Assembly (NCBI RefSeq): GCF_009758015.1
Contig: NZ_WSEL01000009.1
Span: forward strand, 372,001-436,000
Source: Ramlibacter pinisoli
GTDB lineage: Bacteria; Pseudomonadota; Gammaproteobacteria; Burkholderiales; Burkholderiaceae_C
Reading direction: 5' to 3'
DNA length: 64,000 nt
A program made the position numbers and the translations under genes. This document shows positions 43,320 to 49,221 of this stretch, one piece after another. The first letter of the stretch is position 1; each line of letters opens with the position of its first letter. Below the pieces are notes generated by a model. It saw only the letters and a program-made list of their open reading frames with translations, was not told the DNA's origin and searched no databases.

Positions 43320-43487
43320 ATGGCCACCATCCAGTCCCCCGACCCCGATCCCGGCGCCGACGAGCCGCCAGATGCCCCTCCCCCGATGCCGGACGAGGAC
43401 GGCCCGCACGACGTGCCCGACGCCACCGTGATCGAGAAGACGCTGCCGTCGCGGCCGGTGCACGGCGACGACACGCCCACCGGCTGA
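43320..43487 (+). CDS. Small acidic, proline-rich protein (55 aa)
   Basis: A 55-residue protein, MATIQSPDPDPGADEPPDAP..., rich in Pro and Asp, probably disordered. AGGAG seven bases before the ATG is a well-formed ribosome site, the main reason for calling it. It lies between the island and the nitrite reductase leader. No function can be proposed. Confidence 0.55.
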   Translation: MATIQSPDPDPGADEPPDAPPPMPDEDGPHDVPDATVIEKTLPSRPVHGDDTPTG

Positions 43488-43500
43488 CCCCGGACCCGTC

Positions 43501-43517
43501 CGCACCGTCTTGGCGCG
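43501..43517. promoter_or_regulatory. Possible NtrC-binding site
   Basis: CGCACC-N5-GGCGCG matches the dyad layout of NtrC sites (GCACC-N5-GGTGC) with one core difference and lies about 93 bases upstream of the sigma-54 -24 element, a usual enhancer distance. A single site with a mismatch is weak evidence. Confidence 0.35.
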
Positions 43518-43609
43518 CCCGTGCACGGCACGCGCGTCAACGGTGCCCGGTCCCGCCGCCAAGCGCACGCTTCGGTGGCGCGGCCGCGTTCCGCTGCATC
43601 CCCAGGCAC

Positions 43610-43625
43610 TGGCACGGTGCTTGCG
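43610..43625 (+). promoter_or_regulatory. Sigma-54 promoter of the nirBD operon
   Basis: TGGCACGGTGCTTGC matches the -24/-12 consensus TGGCACG-N4-TTGC at every fixed base with correct spacing. It lies 160-170 bases before nirB, and transcription would begin near 43636, upstream of the two-hairpin leader. Nitrogen-limited activation through NtrC would be expected. Confidence 0.75.
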
Positions 43626-43674
43626 TACCCCTTCGCACCTGACGGCGCGCCTTCCGGCGTGCCCCTAGCCTCCC

Positions 43675-43719
43675 GGCGCACAACGACGTGCGTCCCTGGT
43701 GCGCACTGCAGCACACCGG
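43675..43719 (+). promoter_or_regulatory. Two-hairpin ANTAR (NasT/NasR-type) RNA leader
   Basis: Two adjacent hairpins carry six-base loops. Hairpin 1: GGCGCAC-[AACGAC]-GTGCG(T)CC, loop 43682-43687. Hairpin 2: GGTGCGC-[ACTGCA]-GCACACC, loop 43705-43710, with one C/A mismatch and possible extension to 43696/43719. Both loops have A at position 1 and G at position 4, the recognised ANTAR-protein signature, and only about two bases separate the stems. This is the arrangement bound by NasR/NasT antiterminators upstream of nitrate and nitrite assimilation genes. Confidence 0.7.
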
Positions 43720-43736
43720 AAGTGAATCAGGCCCTC

Positions 43737-43764
43737 CGCCCGCGCTCGGCCGCGGCGTGTGTTT
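43737..43764 (+). terminator. Leader terminator before nirB
   Basis: CGC-(C)-CGCG-[CTCGGC]-CGCG-GCG forms a 7-base-pair GC stem with one bulge, followed by TGTGTTT. It lies 18 bases before the nirB ATG and just after the second ANTAR hairpin, so it is well placed as the conditional terminator that NasT binding would overcome. The T run is poor. Confidence 0.5.
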
Positions 43765-43782
43765 GGGATCACGAACCGGGTC

Positions 43783-46308
43783 ATGCAATTGAAGATCGTC
43801 CTCATCGGCCACGGCATGGTTGGCCACAAGTTCCTCGAAAGCCTGGAGGCCTGCGGCCTGCAGGCCCACGTCACCGTCCTGTGCGAGGAGCCGCGCCCCG
43901 CCTATGACCGGGTGCACCTGTCCGAATTCTTCGCCGGCCGCAGCGCCGACGACCTGTCGCTGGTGGCGCCGGGCTTCTTCGACCGCCCCGGCCGCGTGCT
44001 GCGCCTGAACGAGCGCGCGGTGGCCATCGACCGCGCCGCCCGCACCGTCACCGGCAGCTCCGGCGAGGTGTTCCCCTACGACAAGCTGGTGCTGGCCACC
44101 GGCTCGGCGCCCTTCGTGCCCGCAATGGAGGGCAGCGACCGGCCCGACTGCTTCGTCTACCGCACCATCGAGGACCTGGAGGCCATGCAGGCCGCCGGGC
44201 GTCGCTCGCGCAGCGGGGTCGTCATCGGCGGCGGCCTGCTCGGCCTGGAATGCGGCAAGGCCCTGCGCGACATGCAGCTGCAGACCCACGTGGTCGAATT
44301 CGCCCCGCGGCTGATGGCCCTGCAGGTCGACGAGGGCGGCGGCCGCATGCTGCGCAGCCACATCGAGGCACTGGGCGTCAGCGTGCACGCGCAGAAGCAC
44401 ACCCTGCGCATCGTCGACGGCCACGAGGCGCGCCACCGGCTCGAGTTCGCCGACGGCAGCCACCTGGAGACCGACATGGTGGTGTTCTCGGCCGGCATCC
44501 GGCCGCGCGACGCGCTGGCGCGCGAGGCCGGCCTGGCCCTGGGCCCGCGCGGTGGCATCGCCGTCGACGAGCAGGTGCGCACCAGCGACCCCGACATCCT
44601 GGCGATCGGCGAATGCGCGGCCTACGAGGGCATGGTCTACGGCCTGGTGGCGCCCGGCTACGACATGGCCCGGACCGCGGCGGCGCAGCTGGCCGGCAAG
44701 GACCAGCGTTTCCGCGGTGCCGACATGAGCACCAAGCTCAAGCTGATGGGCGTCGACGTGGCCAGCATCGGCGAGGTGCACGGCCGCACCGAGGGCGCGC
44801 GCGCCTTCCAGTTCAGCGACGAGCGCAAGCAGGTCTACAAGAAGATCGTCGTCTCGGCCTGCGGCAAGAAGCTGGTCGGGGCGGTGATGGTGGGCGACGC
44901 CGCCGAGTACGGCACCCTGCTGCAGACCATGCTCAACGGGCTGGACCTGCCGGTCGCCCCCGAGGCGCTGATCCTGCCGGCCAGCGACGGCCAGGCACGG
45001 CCGGCCCTAGGCGTGGACGCTCTGCCCGACGCGGCCCAGATCTGCTCCTGCAACGACGTCTCCAAGGGCGCGCTGTGCGCCGCGGTGCGCGACGGCGCCA
45101 CCACGGTGGCCGCGCTCAAGGCCTGCACCCGGGCCGGCACCGCCTGCGGCGGCTGCGTGCCCCTGGTCACCCAGGTGATGAAGGCCGAGATGAAGAAGAA
45201 CGGCGTGGCGGTGAACAACCACCTGTGCGAGCACTTCGCCCACTCGCGCCAGGAGCTGTTCCACCTGGTCAAGGTCGAGGGCATCCGGAGCTTCGACGAC
45301 CTGCTGGCGCGCCACGGCAAGGGCCGGGGCTGCGACATCTGCAAGCCGGTGGCCGCGAGCATCTTCGCCTCCTGCTGGAACGACTTCGTCCTGGCGCGCG
45401 ACCGGGCCGCCCTGCAGGACTCCAACGACTACTTCCTGGGCAACATCCAGAAGGACGGCACCTACTCGGTGGTGCCGCGCATGCCGGCCGGCGAGGTGAC
45501 GCCCGACGGGCTGATGGCGGTGGCCATGGTCGCCAAGAAGTACGGGCTGTACACCAAGATCACCGGCGGCCAGCGGGTCGACCTGTTCGGCGCGCGGCTG
45601 GAGCAGCTGCCCGCGATCTGGGAGGAGCTGATCGCCGCCGGCTTCGAGTCCGGCCATGCCTATGGCAAGTCGCTGCGCACTGTGAAATCGTGCGTGGGCT
45701 CCACCTGGTGCCGCTACGGCGTGGGCGACAGCGTCGGCCTCGCGATCGAGCTGGAGAACCGCTACAAGGGCCTGCGTGCGCCGCACAAGATCAAGTTCGG
45801 CGTCTCCGGCTGCACCCGCGAATGCGCCGAGGCGCAAGGCAAGGACGTCGGCGTCATCGCCACCGAGCGCGGCTGGAACCTGTACGTCTGCGGCAACGGC
45901 GGCATGAAGCCGCGCCACGCCGAACTGCTGGCGGCCGACCTCAGCAAGGAGCGGCTGGTCGCCCTGATCGACCGCTTCCTGATGTTCTACGTGCGCACCG
46001 CCGACCGGCTGCAGCGCACCAGCGTGTGGCGCGAGAACCTGGAAGGCGGCCTCGACTACCTCAAGGCCGTGGTCGTCGACGACAGCCTGGGGCTGGGCGC
46101 CGAGCTGGAGGCCGACATGCAGCAGCTGGTGGACAGCTATGCCTGCGAGTGGAAGGCCGCCGTCGAGGACCCCGAGACCCGCAAGCGCTTCCGCCCCTTC
46201 GTCAACACCGACCGGCCCGATCCGCTCGTGATGTTCGTGCCGGAACGCCGCCAGATCCGCCCCGCCACCGCCCAGGAGCGGAGCCCCGAGACCGAAACCA
46301 CCGCCTGA
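43783..46308 (+). CDS. nirB: Assimilatory nitrite reductase [NAD(P)H], large subunit
   Basis: An 841-residue cytoplasmic enzyme reducing nitrite to ammonium. Order: FAD/NAD domains (LKIVLIGHGMVGHKF; VVIGGGLLGLECGKAL), BFD-type [2Fe-2S] domain with CSCNDV and CTRAGTACGGC (near residues 422-460), then sulfite/nitrite reductase repeats with siroheme-[4Fe-4S] cysteines in SCVGSTWC (near 637) and SGCTREC. The ATG at 43783 gives the standard start; a GTG at 43759 in frame is in the terminator. A sigma-54 promoter and ANTAR leader precede it. Length is normal for NirB. Confidence 0.95.
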   Translation: MQLKIVLIGHGMVGHKFLESLEACGLQAHVTVLCEEPRPAYDRVHLSEFFAGRSADDLSLVAPGFFDRPGRVLRLNERAVAIDRAARTVTGSSGEVFPYDKLVLATGSAPFVPAMEGSDRPDCFVYRTIEDLEAMQAAGRRSRSGVVIGGGLLGLECGKALRDMQLQTHVVEFAPRLMALQVDEGGGRMLRSHIEALGVSVHAQKHTLRIVDGHEARHRLEFADGSHLETDMVVFSAGIRPRDALAREAGLALGPRGGIAVDEQVRTSDPDILAIGECAAYEGMVYGLVAPGYDMARTAAAQLAGKDQRFRGADMSTKLKLMGVDVASIGEVHGRTEGARAFQFSDERKQVYKKIVVSACGKKLVGAVMVGDAAEYGTLLQTMLNGLDLPVAPEALILPASDGQARPALGVDALPDAAQICSCNDVSKGALCAAVRDGATTVAALKACTRAGTACGGCVPLVTQVMKAEMKKNGVAVNNHLCEHFAHSRQELFHLVKVEGIRSFDDLLARHGKGRGCDICKPVAASIFASCWNDFVLARDRAALQDSNDYFLGNIQKDGTYSVVPRMPAGEVTPDGLMAVAMVAKKYGLYTKITGGQRVDLFGARLEQLPAIWEELIAAGFESGHAYGKSLRTVKSCVGSTWCRYGVGDSVGLAIELENRYKGLRAPHKIKFGVSGCTRECAEAQGKDVGVIATERGWNLYVCGNGGMKPRHAELLAADLSKERLVALIDRFLMFYVRTADRLQRTSVWRENLEGGLDYLKAVVVDDSLGLGAELEADMQQLVDSYACEWKAAVEDPETRKRFRPFVNTDRPDPLVMFVPERRQIRPATAQERSPETETTA

Positions 46309-46315
46309 AGACCCC

Positions 46316-46651
46316 ATGAACCGACACGACCTGCACTGGAACCCCGTCTGCCGGCTGGACGACATCGTCCCCGACACCGGCGTCTGCGCCCTGCTGGACG
46401 AGCGCCACGTCGCCATCTTCCGGGTCGGCGACGACGAGCTGTACGCCATCGACAACGTCGACCCGAACGCCCGCGCCAGCGTGCTGTCGCGCGGCCTGGT
46501 GGGCAACCTGGGCGAGCGCATCGTCGTCGCCTCGCCGCTCTACAAGCACCACTTCGACCTGCGCAGCGGCGAGTGCCTGGAGGTGCCCGAGCACTCGGTG
46601 GGCACCTACGCGGTGCGCGTCGAAGACGACACCGTCCTCGTGGCCATCTGA
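46316..46651 (+). CDS. nirD: Nitrite reductase [NAD(P)H], small subunit
   Basis: A 111-residue Rieske-fold subunit. As in other NirD proteins the iron-sulfur ligands are absent: the region reads DNVDPNARASVLSRGLVGNLGERIVVASPLYKHHFDLRSGECLEV, with no CxH pairs. It stabilises or completes NirB. It starts seven bases after the nirB stop. Confidence 0.93.
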   Translation: MNRHDLHWNPVCRLDDIVPDTGVCALLDERHVAIFRVGDDELYAIDNVDPNARASVLSRGLVGNLGERIVVASPLYKHHFDLRSGECLEVPEHSVGTYAVRVEDDTVLVAI

Positions 46652-46685: not shown

Positions 46686-47498
46686 ATGGCCTACCTCGTC
46701 CCTTCCGAATTCGTCGCCAAGATGGTCGACGCCGGTGAATCCAAGATCCACATGAGCACGCGCGACACGCTCATCCGCTCCTACATGGCCGGCGCCATCC
46801 TGGCGCTGGCGGCCTGGTTCGCGATCACGATCAACGTGCAGACCGGCCAGCCGCTGGCCGGCGCCGTGCTGTTCCCGGTCGGCTTCTGCATCCTGTACCT
46901 GCTGGGCTTCGACCTGCTCACCGGGGTGTTCGTGCTGGCGCCGCTGGCCCTGATCGACAAGCGCCCGGGCGTCACGGCCGCCGGCGTGCTGCGCAACTGG
47001 GGCCTGGTGTTCACCGGCAACTTCGCCGGCGCCTTCACGGTGGCCGCGATGATGGCCATCGTCACCACCTTCGGCTTCTCCACCGAGCCCAACGCGGTCG
47101 GCAAGGCGATCGGGGTGATCGGCGAGTCGCGCACGCTGGGCTACGCGCACTACGGCGCGGCCGGCATGCTGACCCTGTTCGTGCGCGGCATGCTGTGCAA
47201 CTGGATGGTGTCCACCGGCGTCGTCGGCGCGATGATCTCGACCACCGTGGGTGGCAAGGTGCTGGCCATGTGGATGCCCATCATGCTGTTCTTCTACATG
47301 ACCTTCGAGCACTCCATCGTCAACATGTTCCTGTTCCCCTCGGGCCTGCTGCTGGGTGGACACTTCACGATCATGGACTACCTGATCTGGAACGAGATCC
47401 CCACCGTGCTGGGCAACCTGGTGGGCGGCCTGTCGTTCACCGGCCTGACCCTGTACGCCACCCACGTCAAGACGGCCCGCAAGCGCGCCATCGCCTGA
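46686..47498 (+). CDS. Formate/nitrite transporter (FNT) family channel
   Basis: A 270-residue inner-membrane protein with the six-helix FNT pattern: MAGAILALAAWFAITINV, GFCILYLLGFDLLTGVFVLAPLALIDKRPG, NWGLVFTGNFAGAF, GMLCNWMVSTGV, FFYMTFEHSIVNMFLFPSGLLLGG. The FEHSIVNMF helix contains the conserved central His region. Its place after nirBD points to nitrite uptake or export (NirC-like) rather than formate. AAGAGAACCTCC lies before the ATG. Confidence 0.92.
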   Translation: MAYLVPSEFVAKMVDAGESKIHMSTRDTLIRSYMAGAILALAAWFAITINVQTGQPLAGAVLFPVGFCILYLLGFDLLTGVFVLAPLALIDKRPGVTAAGVLRNWGLVFTGNFAGAFTVAAMMAIVTTFGFSTEPNAVGKAIGVIGESRTLGYAHYGAAGMLTLFVRGMLCNWMVSTGVVGAMISTTVGGKVLAMWMPIMLFFYMTFEHSIVNMFLFPSGLLLGGHFTIMDYLIWNEIPTVLGNLVGGLSFTGLTLYATHVKTARKRAIA

Positions 47499-47502
47499 CA
47501 CC

Positions 47503-49221
47503 GTGCCGCTGCGGATCGCCGTCGGACAGCATTCCAGCGCGGGCCGCAAGCCGGCCAACCAGGACTTCCACGGCATCTGCCTGCCCGAGGGCGCCACCCT
47601 GGCCGCCAAGGGCGCCGCCGTCGCGCTGGCCGACGGCATCAGCAGCAGCGACAGCGCCGGCCAGGCCAGCCAGGTGGCGGTCGCGAGCCTGCTGCAGGAC
47701 TACTACTGCACCCCCGACGCCTGGTCGGTCCGGCAATCGGTCGATCGGGTGCTGGCAGCCGCCAACTCGTGGCTGTACGCGCAGACGCAGCGCGGCGCCG
47801 GCCGCTACGACAAGGACCGCGGCTGGGTCTGCACCCTCAGCGCCCTGGTGCTCAAGGGCCGCACCGCCCACCTGTTCCACGTCGGCGACACCCGTGTCTG
47901 GCAGCTGCAGGGCCGCGCGCTCGAGCAGCTGACCCACGACCACCGGGTGCACGTGGGCGGCGAGACCTACCTGGGGCGCGCCCTGGGCATCGCCCCGCAG
48001 GTGGAGATCGACTACCGGCGGCTGCCGCTGGAGGCGGGCGACGCCTTCGTGCTGGCCACCGACGGCGTCTACGACCACGTGCCGGCCGCCTTCCTGGCCG
48101 CCAGCCTGGAGCAGCACGGCGGTGACCTGGACGCGGCCGCGCGCGCCATCGTCGACGAGGCGCTGCGCCACGGCAGCAACGACAACCTCACCGTCCAGCT
48201 GCTGCGGGTGGAGGGCGTGGCGGACGGCGACGCGCTGGAGGCCGTGGGCGGCGCGGGCGCGCTGCCGCTGCCGCCACCGCTCGCGCCGCGCCTGCTGCTG
48301 GACGGCCTGCGCATCGTGCGCGAGCTGCACGCCAGCAGCCGCAGCCACGCCTGGCTGGCGCTCGACGAGGCCAGCGGCCGGCCGGTCGTCGTCAAGGTGC
48401 CGGCCACCGAGCAGCGCGAGGACCCGCGCGCCCTCGAACGGCTGCTGCTGGAGGAGTGGGTGGCGCGCCGCCTGGACAACGCCCATGTCCTGAAGGCCTT
48501 CCCGCCTTCCGGCCGGCGCAGCTCGCTCTACACGGTGATGGAGTTCGTCGACGGCCAGACGCTGGCGCAGTGGATGGTCGACCACCCGCGGCCCCCGCTG
48601 CAGGAGGTGCGCGCCATCGTCGCCCAGATCGCGCGCGGCCTGCGCGCCCTGCACCGGGCCGAGATGGTCCACCAGGACCTGCGGCCGGAGAACGTGATGC
48701 TCGATGCCACCGGCAGCGCAAAGCTGATCGACTTCGGCGCCGTGCGCGTGGCCGGCATCGAGGAGCGCGACACCAGCGAACGGCTGGCCCTGCCGGGGAT
48801 GGCGCAGTACATGGCGCCCGAGCTGTTCCTGGGCGAGGCGGGCACCCCGGCCTCCGACCTGTTCTCGCTGGCGGTGCTGACCTATCAGCTGCTCACCGGC
48901 CGCCTGCCCTATGGCCTGGACCTGCCCCGTTGCCACAGCCTGGCCGAGCAGCGACGCCTGCGCTACCGCTCGCTGCACGCCATGCGCCGCGACGTGCCGG
49001 CCTGGGTCGACGACACCCTGCTGCAGGCGCTGCACCCGGAGCCCGGGCGCCGGCACGCCGACGTGGCGGAATTCGTGCACGCGCTCGAGCACCCGGTGGC
49101 CGGGCGGCGCGCCACCCTGCCCCTGGCCGAGCGCGACCCGCTGACGTTCTGGCGCACCCTGGCCGTGCTGCTCGGGCTGTGCTGCGTCGGCCTGCTGGGC
49201 CTGCTGGCGGCGCGCGGCTGA
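47503..49221 (+). CDS. Fused PP2C phosphatase - Ser/Thr protein kinase, membrane-anchored
   Basis: A 572-residue fusion beginning at GTG, four bases after the FNT stop. Residues 1-245 are a PP2C phosphatase (NQDF, ADGIS, HVGDTRVWQL, ATDGVYDHV, SNDNLTV metal and core motifs). Residues about 270-530 are a Hanks-type kinase: VVVKVP Lys near 299, HQDLRPENVM catalytic loop near 391, IDFGAV at about 410, MAPE. The last 20 residues are a membrane helix. A similar kinase-phosphatase is found beside nirB in Pseudomonas aeruginosa (PA1782). Its target is unknown; the operon position suggests control of nitrate/nitrite uptake. Confidence 0.9.
   Translation: MPLRIAVGQHSSAGRKPANQDFHGICLPEGATLAAKGAAVALADGISSSDSAGQASQVAVASLLQDYYCTPDAWSVRQSVDRVLAAANSWLYAQTQRGAGRYDKDRGWVCTLSALVLKGRTAHLFHVGDTRVWQLQGRALEQLTHDHRVHVGGETYLGRALGIAPQVEIDYRRLPLEAGDAFVLATDGVYDHVPAAFLAASLEQHGGDLDAAARAIVDEALRHGSNDNLTVQLLRVEGVADGDALEAVGGAGALPLPPPLAPRLLLDGLRIVRELHASSRSHAWLALDEASGRPVVVKVPATEQREDPRALERLLLEEWVARRLDNAHVLKAFPPSGRRSSLYTVMEFVDGQTLAQWMVDHPRPPLQEVRAIVAQIARGLRALHRAEMVHQDLRPENVMLDATGSAKLIDFGAVRVAGIEERDTSERLALPGMAQYMAPELFLGEAGTPASDLFSLAVLTYQLLTGRLPYGLDLPRCHSLAEQRRLRYRSLHAMRRDVPAWVDDTLLQALHPEPGRRHADVAEFVHALEHPVAGRRATLPLAERDPLTFWRTLAVLLGLCCVGLLGLLAARG

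Follow-up and report, generated by a model that had tools for sequence, protein, structure and literature searches.

Whether the nirBD operon of Ramlibacter pinisoli is controlled at two levels, by a sigma-54 promoter and by an ANTAR protein acting on its leader RNA, and whether the second level depends on a terminator, is the question raised by this locus. The window is the whole 64-kb stretch of DNA analysed (contig NZ_WSEL01000009.1, positions 372,001 to 436,000), and all positions without a locus label refer to it. The original prediction had assigned to this leader the full two-level architecture, in which nitrogen limitation starts transcription and a NasT/NasR protein permits read-through. 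The following features were identified.

43501..43517, + strand: weak NtrC-like dyad CGCACCGTCTTGGCGCG, 109 nt upstream of the -24 element
43610..43625, + strand: sigma-54 -24/-12 promoter TGGCACGGTGCTTGCG, the sole perfect site in 64 kb
43675..43694, + strand: hairpin P1, GGCGCAC[AACGAC]GTGCGTC, loop AACGAC at 43682-43687
43696..43719, + strand: hairpin P2, CTGGTGCGC[ACTGCA]GCACACCGG, loop ACTGCA at 43705-43710, one C-A mismatch
43740..43765, + strand: weak terminator-like GC stem CCGCG[CTCGGC]CGCGG (43740-43755), then CGTGTGTTTG; no overlap with P2
43789..46308, + strand: nirB, E. coli-type nitrite reductase large subunit (NF011565, 1325.9 bits, over cut-off)
46316..46651, + strand: nirD, nitrite reductase small subunit (TIGR02378, over cut-off)
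46686..47498, + strand: formate/nitrite transporter, FNT family (PF01226, 205 bits)
47503..49221, + strand: PP2C phosphatase - Ser/Thr kinase fusion (PF13672 and PF00069)

Sigma-54 promoter and nirB operon

The perfect -24/-12 element that had been claimed was confirmed at 43610-43625, and genes for both RpoN and NtrC are present in the genome. On both strands of the window, TGGCAC-N5-TTGC occurs only once, with a Markov expectation of 0.18 per window, and transcription is predicted to start near 43636. Among the corresponding leaders of relatives, the core was found unchanged in L043, L048, and L263, while L047 differs by one base and the -24 element of L044 (Caldimonas mangrovi) reads TGGCAT rather than TGGCAC. 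Two RpoN proteins lie over the family cut-off (G000:C7:51919-53442 and G000:C9:1648565-1649914), as does NtrC (677 bits). A candidate NtrC site before the promoter is only weakly visible, with the dyad agreeing at 10 of 14 consensus positions (nominal single-test shuffle P 0.023). The same consensus gave shuffle P values of 0.010-0.013 in L043, L048, L044, and L045, and of 0.35 in L047.

The start of nirB was placed at the TTG at 43789 by alignment with relatives; an ATG at 43783 is also possible. The phosphatase-kinase fusion is presumed to be the last gene of the operon, as the spacing of the genes suggests co-transcription. A second NirB, 38% identical to the window NirB, and a nasA-like gene are both encoded on contig C3 of the genome. 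It was noted that a small open frame (MATIQSPDPDPGADEPPDAPPPMPDEDGPHDVPDATVIEKTLPSRPVHGDDTPTG) occupies 43320-43487, between the upstream amidohydrolase-like gene and the promoter.

A pair of hexaloop hairpins in the leader

Two adjacent hairpins whose hexaloops, AACGAC and ACTGCA, share A1 and G4 had been described for this leader, and the pair was found to be as described. Both loops are closed by C:G, and the loop starts lie 23 nt apart. A scan of both strands of the 64 kb for C:G-closed A1/G4 hexaloops (at least 6 pairs, no more than 1 mismatch, loop distance 17-45) returned no other pair; because 0.47 are expected per window, the pair alone is not significant. The case rests on the combination of promoter, pair, and nirB, together with conservation. 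The pair follows the promoter by approximately 70 nt, and both are situated just upstream of nirB. With its end at 43719, P2 stops approximately 70 nt short of the start codon (43783 or 43789), which leaves the hairpins clear of the ribosome site. Rfam gave no relevant match, whether gathering cut-offs were applied or E values up to 10 were allowed.

Conservation across relatives

We found the window-type NirB to be uncommon in the genus, as it was detected in 2 of 36 other Ramlibacter genomes (80 and 82% identity); G838 (the source of L047) and G829 (L263) were later additions to the set. The -24/-12 site followed by two hexaloop hairpins was encountered in the Ramlibacter nirB leaders L043, L047, L048, and L263, and also in L044 and in L045 from an Aquabacterium. 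A four-leader alignment shows some of its strongest conservation at P1 and P2. When six sequences were aligned, 85.1% of cells pair, compared with 12-48% for slid structures, and 6 pairs change on both sides, a count reached by 13 of 500 shuffles. For ten elements from nirB and transporter leaders, 83.8% pair (3/500 shuffles; slid structures 12-57%). The covariation score was matched by none of 500 shuffles with either six or ten sequences. The number of pairs with a double change is reached by 48/500 shuffles in the ten-element set, so this measure alone is not decisive there. MAFFT alignments mixing nrtA and nirB leaders (A1, A3, A4), P2 of L043 in A5, and P2 in the long alignment A8 were misregistered and left out of the pair counts.

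All 20 loops of the ten elements carry G4, which is partly by construction given that G4 was a search criterion, and the C:G closing pair is kept in 10/10 elements for P1 and P2 alike. Loop position 1 is A in 11/20 and G in 9/20 loops and is thus relaxed to a purine. The loop starts are 21-24 nt apart in 10/10 elements, which span two gene contexts and three genera; the loop distance of the nrtA leaders described below is 28-43 nt, with a value of 21 in the nrtA leader L138, outside that set. The leader alignment that the original prediction had proposed as a check therefore upholds the stems, with compensating changes, and G4, while the expected A at loop position 1 proved to be a purine.

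A search of 399 order-level genomes with the leader DNA recovered only four short weak matches besides the own genome. A covariance model, R1, was built from L047, L048, L044, and L045, with the window excluded. Across the 5.5 Mb genome, R1 ranked the window site first (43674-43718; 33.8 bits, E 0.0198, next match 27.3 bits), although its E-values are rough. Over 59 Ramlibacter genomes at E 0.05, there were nine matches, comprising two training sequences, the window, three new sites, and three (L243, L245, L246) at which no adjacent upstream sigma-54 site was seen and which look coding by eye. R1 failed to detect two real elements, L043 and L263.

At each of the new sites (L241, L242, L244), a perfect sigma-54 site is followed by the element and then directly by a formate/nitrite transporter gene. 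These transporters share 94, 86, and 91% identity with the third gene of the window operon, respectively; BLASTP gave 87% (L242) and 92% (L244), and a PF01226 search supports the identity of the genes behind L242 and L244. As the element precedes the transporter in three congeners, it appears to serve nitrite handling also at loci where nirBD does not follow directly. The window-type transporter was recorded in 16 of 59 Ramlibacter genomes, three of which have the element immediately before it. At other loci, the gene stands behind nirBD or other sequence, and 5 of 15 read loci had no pattern-recognised start codon. Four congeners' transporter genes (L253, L254, L255, L258) were seen by eye to have a sigma-54-like promoter nearby and no dual hairpin. 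Taken from sequence comparison, the conservation supports the reading of the window leader as a putative ANTAR-type dual-hexaloop element.

The likely regulator

A genome-wide ANTAR search gave two matches, both on contig C3. The statement that no nasS or nasT gene lies in the window was borne out, and a regulator acting from elsewhere gains support from a NasR beside the nitrate-transporter genes of C3. This is a NasR-like protein of 407 aa with NIT and ANTAR domains, encoded directly upstream of the nitrate ABC transporter genes. Between the two regulator types that had been named, the genome speaks for NasR (NIT+ANTAR), and NasT is not the likely type. The absence of any nasT-type gene from the genome had been put forward as grounds for refutation; a nitrate-type ANTAR gene is present, so these grounds do not apply. 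One NIT-domain match was found in each of the 8/8 Ramlibacter genomes carrying the element. G009, G018, and G025 have a single ANTAR match each, adjoining the NIT match on the same strand, and Pfam places NIT and ANTAR within one protein in G000, G018, and G034 (the ANTAR search covered all of the eight but G829 and G838). From this co-occurrence, NasR is most likely the partner of the nirB leader, to which it is predicted to bind.

The second ANTAR protein of the nas cluster on C3 has a weak receiver match, an ANTAR domain, and two PilJ stretches. In the same cluster (L003:11437-15921, G000:C3), PilJ-Hpt-HATPase (CheA-like) and CheY-like proteins are encoded on the opposite strand to it. These proteins possibly form a second nitrate-sensing route to RNA.

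Terminators and predicted folding

We compared the nirB and transporter leaders with the nrtA leaders of the genus. A terminator consensus scan of the window gave one match, at the GC stem, with 0.1 expected. The best local hairpin there has about -12 kcal/mol (-12.2 in the lenient scan), with 5 T in 8 and a longest T run of 3. The lenient scan also accepted a stem in L043 (-26.6 kcal/mol, 5 T in 8) and none in L047, L048, L044, or L045. The T content behind P2 does not exceed 3 in 8 in L241, L244, and L263 and reaches 5 in 8 in L242; none of the ten nirB/transporter leaders has a T run longer than 3 in this part. The GC stem with a T-rich tail that had been predicted before nirB is thus present at 43740-43765, but it is weak and not conserved.

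Strong terminators (-32.7 to -50.8 kcal/mol, followed by 5-8 T in 8) enclose P2 in the nrtA leaders of the genus, including that of the same genome. A canonical switch of P2 versus terminator was recognised in 16/16 counted (the own genome and 15 congeners). Two further nrtA leaders, L138 and L144, fall outside the 16 because the pattern failed, and both look canonical by eye; L130 shows no such nrtA leader. Once at least 65 nt follow P2, forcing P2 costs 7.4-20.2 kcal/mol in 16/16 nrtA leaders, compared with no more than 3.5 kcal/mol among the ten nirB/transporter leaders over all lengths tested. By fold prediction, no terminator locking P2 was found among these ten.

Some of the predicted folds run against this picture. 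The stability of P2 in the window folds varies with context, and its predicted probability falls to 0.03 in the full leader. With three forced pairs, the cost of P2 in L043 is 5.5 kcal/mol. In L241, P1 and P2 each have a probability of approximately 0.01 beyond +25, with a cost of 2.8 kcal/mol, and the predicted folds of L241 and L244 are unsteady. It was also observed that in L242:1501-1600, P1 rather than P2 is displaced, as AACGGCGTGCG is able to pair with CGCACGCCGTT immediately ahead of a stretch that is weakly T-rich. L131, the leader of a second nirB in G025 (G025:C12) directly behind nasR, has a sigma-54-like site, two hexaloop hairpins, and no T tract; it was left out of the class of ten, as the fold displaces its P2 (3.1-9.5 kcal/mol from +45 onward).

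A start was recognised at 143 of 150 nirB loci, and a sigma-54 site at 48 of the 143 (duplicates included). The lenient terminator scan passed 17/43 distinct sigma-54 nirB leaders, including 7/7 Paraburkholderia leaders. When stems overlapping P2 were sought in other nirB leaders, there was no consistent partner. Because no terminator was found to lock P2 and the GC stem is not conserved, read-through by a classical refolding switch is not supported for the window. The sigma-54 promoter and the ANTAR element of the claimed two-level architecture stand, and its terminator part is not supported in the form proposed.

Proposed mechanism and alternative explanations

We consider it probable that the nirB-nirD-transporter-kinase operon has a leader that is transcribed by sigma-54 polymerase and serves as an ANTAR target RNA, with NasR docking at its self-folding hairpins. 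Under nitrogen limitation, sigma-54 polymerase and an activator, most likely NtrC, would start transcription near 43636, and the nascent RNA would fold P1 and P2 with their purine-1/G4 hexaloops. NasR, having sensed nitrate or nitrite, would then bind the hexaloops, as may be expected from what is known of NasR. In contrast to the nrtA leader of this genome, no competing terminator appears to hold P2, so that the docking site of NasR would most likely be a double hairpin able to form unaided. Docking would raise expression by blocking another premature stop, either Rho or the weak downstream hairpin, and not by refolding P2. Taken alone, this relief of a non-canonical stop is a tentative proposal that we hold with some doubt. 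A Rho-type C/G bubble did not separate the nirB/transporter leaders from the nrtA leaders, and the C/G content gives no Rho support. It is conceivable, if somewhat speculative, that in Ramlibacter and near relatives one sensor, NasR, has two RNA outputs, with a refolding switch at nrtA and, at nirB and the transporter, closely spaced self-folding hairpins whose loop position 1 is relaxed to a purine and which would work without an intrinsic terminator. If true, a two-output NasR would represent a second ANTAR control mode outside the actinobacteria, located away from the ribosome site.

Several other readings were weighed against NasR docking on self-folding hairpins. Classical antitermination, in which the 43740-43765 stem is an intrinsic terminator and NasR on P1/P2 allows read-through, is unlikely. 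In its favour, the terminator-like match lies in the right place with 0.1 expected, L043 has a stem with 5 T in 8, and strong P2-overlapping terminators occur in same-genus nrtA leaders and in Paraburkholderia nirB leaders. However, the window stem reaches only about -12 kcal/mol with a longest T run of 3, no such stem was found in L047, L048, L044, or L045, and the T content after P2 is no higher than 3 in 8 in L241, L244, and L263. The stem is also separate from P2, and without overlap hairpin binding has no evident means of undoing it. The ten leaders in which no P2-competing terminator was found would also suit a post-transcriptional role of NasR, either in ribosome access or in mRNA stability, of the kind suggested for many ANTAR RNAs of actinobacteria; terminator-less ANTAR RNAs exist there, and about 37% overlap the ribosome site or start codon according to the account in PMC8164766. 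We regard this as distinctly improbable for the window, given that forcing P1 and P2 leaves the accessibility of the ribosome site essentially unchanged in 6/6 leaders and that P2 ends approximately 70 nt upstream of the start codon.

It is very unlikely that the second nas-cluster ANTAR protein, with its weak receiver, ANTAR, and two PilJ stretches, is the regulator in place of NasR. Although this genome encodes it, as do several congeners judging by position and frame length, the element-bearing genomes G009, G018, and G025 have one ANTAR match, with the NIT domain adjoining. That the double hairpin is a functionless inherited or chance remnant and the promoter alone matters is hardly credible to us. 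An expectation of 0.47 pairs per window for the pair alone speaks for a remnant, as do four other Ramlibacter FNT genes that by eye have a sigma-54-like promoter and no dual hairpin. Against it stand the compensating changes and the loop distance of 21-24 in 10/10 elements across two gene contexts and three genera, with P1 and P2 among the best conserved parts of the four-leader alignment.

Relation to known systems

Among the closest known arrangements is the Pseudomonas nirBD leader (NalA), described in a review as combining an NtrC/sigma-54 start with NasT antitermination (PMC12830290). As far as that description goes, it shares with Ramlibacter the nirBD operon, the sigma-54 promoter, an ANTAR protein on the leader RNA, and the same two-level logic; it differs in having NasS/NasT and a terminator hairpin, whereas NasR and no P2-competing terminator were found in Ramlibacter. 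Sigma-54 plus ANTAR control of nirBD is thus already established in Pseudomonas, and the basic idea is not new. The new part is a NasR-associated nirBD form in which no P2-competing terminator was found. Sigma-54 promoters are reported to be enriched at NAD(P)H-nitrite reductase genes in Pseudomonadota (PMC12316311), and the genes behind predicted ANTAR RNAs are reported to include nitrite reductase and nitrate/nitrite transporters (PMC3369931).

As presented in PMC3369931 and PMC7496416, the Klebsiella oxytoca nasF leader and NasR share the NIT+ANTAR regulator, the A1/G4 dual hexaloop, and the terminal C:G. The second hairpin of nasF overlaps the terminator, which the Ramlibacter nrtA leader resembles and the nirB leader does not. 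Actinobacterial ANTAR target RNAs, by the account in PMC8164766, also have a dual hexaloop and mostly no predicted intrinsic terminator; many overlap the ribosome site or start codon, unlike the Ramlibacter leader, where P2 lies approximately 70 nt upstream and a sigma-54 promoter precedes. The same source cautions that, where a genome is GC-rich, the prediction of terminators may fail, and this caveat extends to the Ramlibacter leaders. The EutV RNAs of Enterococcus faecalis are described with two close hexaloop hairpins, an invariant G4, and a C:G closing pair (PMC3369931, PMC8934654), but with terminator overlap and A at position 1, while the nirB/transporter elements have G1 in 9/20 loops. 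The account of the EutV-RNA structure gives G4 as the sole base-specific contact (PMC8934654), which fits these G1 loops; for EutV, loop position 1 (A1) is reported to have mattered in vivo and in binding (PMC3369931).

No publication combining "Ramlibacter" and "ANTAR domain" was found, and among the titles and abstract openings returned by literature searches, no terminator-less ANTAR leader in beta-proteobacteria was seen. One genome here sets side by side, under the same presumed sensor, a classical terminator switch (nrtA) and a leader in which no P2-competing terminator was found (nirB). This comparison makes it testable whether ANTAR proteins can do without the refolding of a terminator. 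Should NasR prove to act on the nirB leader, searches that rely on terminators would have missed part of the ANTAR regulon.

Hexaloop hairpins in other leaders

Many other sigma-54 nirB leaders of the family (L174, L183, L190, L195, L196, and similar) were observed to carry a conserved hairpin like tccgccAACGGTggcgga. These leaders often have a second hexaloop hairpin upstream and no T tract, and by eye a later stem starting GGAAC may overlap the 3' arm of the hairpin. Eight leaders behind Ramlibacter ANTAR genes (L141, L147, L151-L154, L156, L157) possess a third hexaloop hairpin after P1 and P2, GGAC[GAAGGC]GTCC, which has G at position 1 and by eye overlaps a terminator. Three hexaloops and a terminator were likewise noted in L150, from a Burkholderiales relative.
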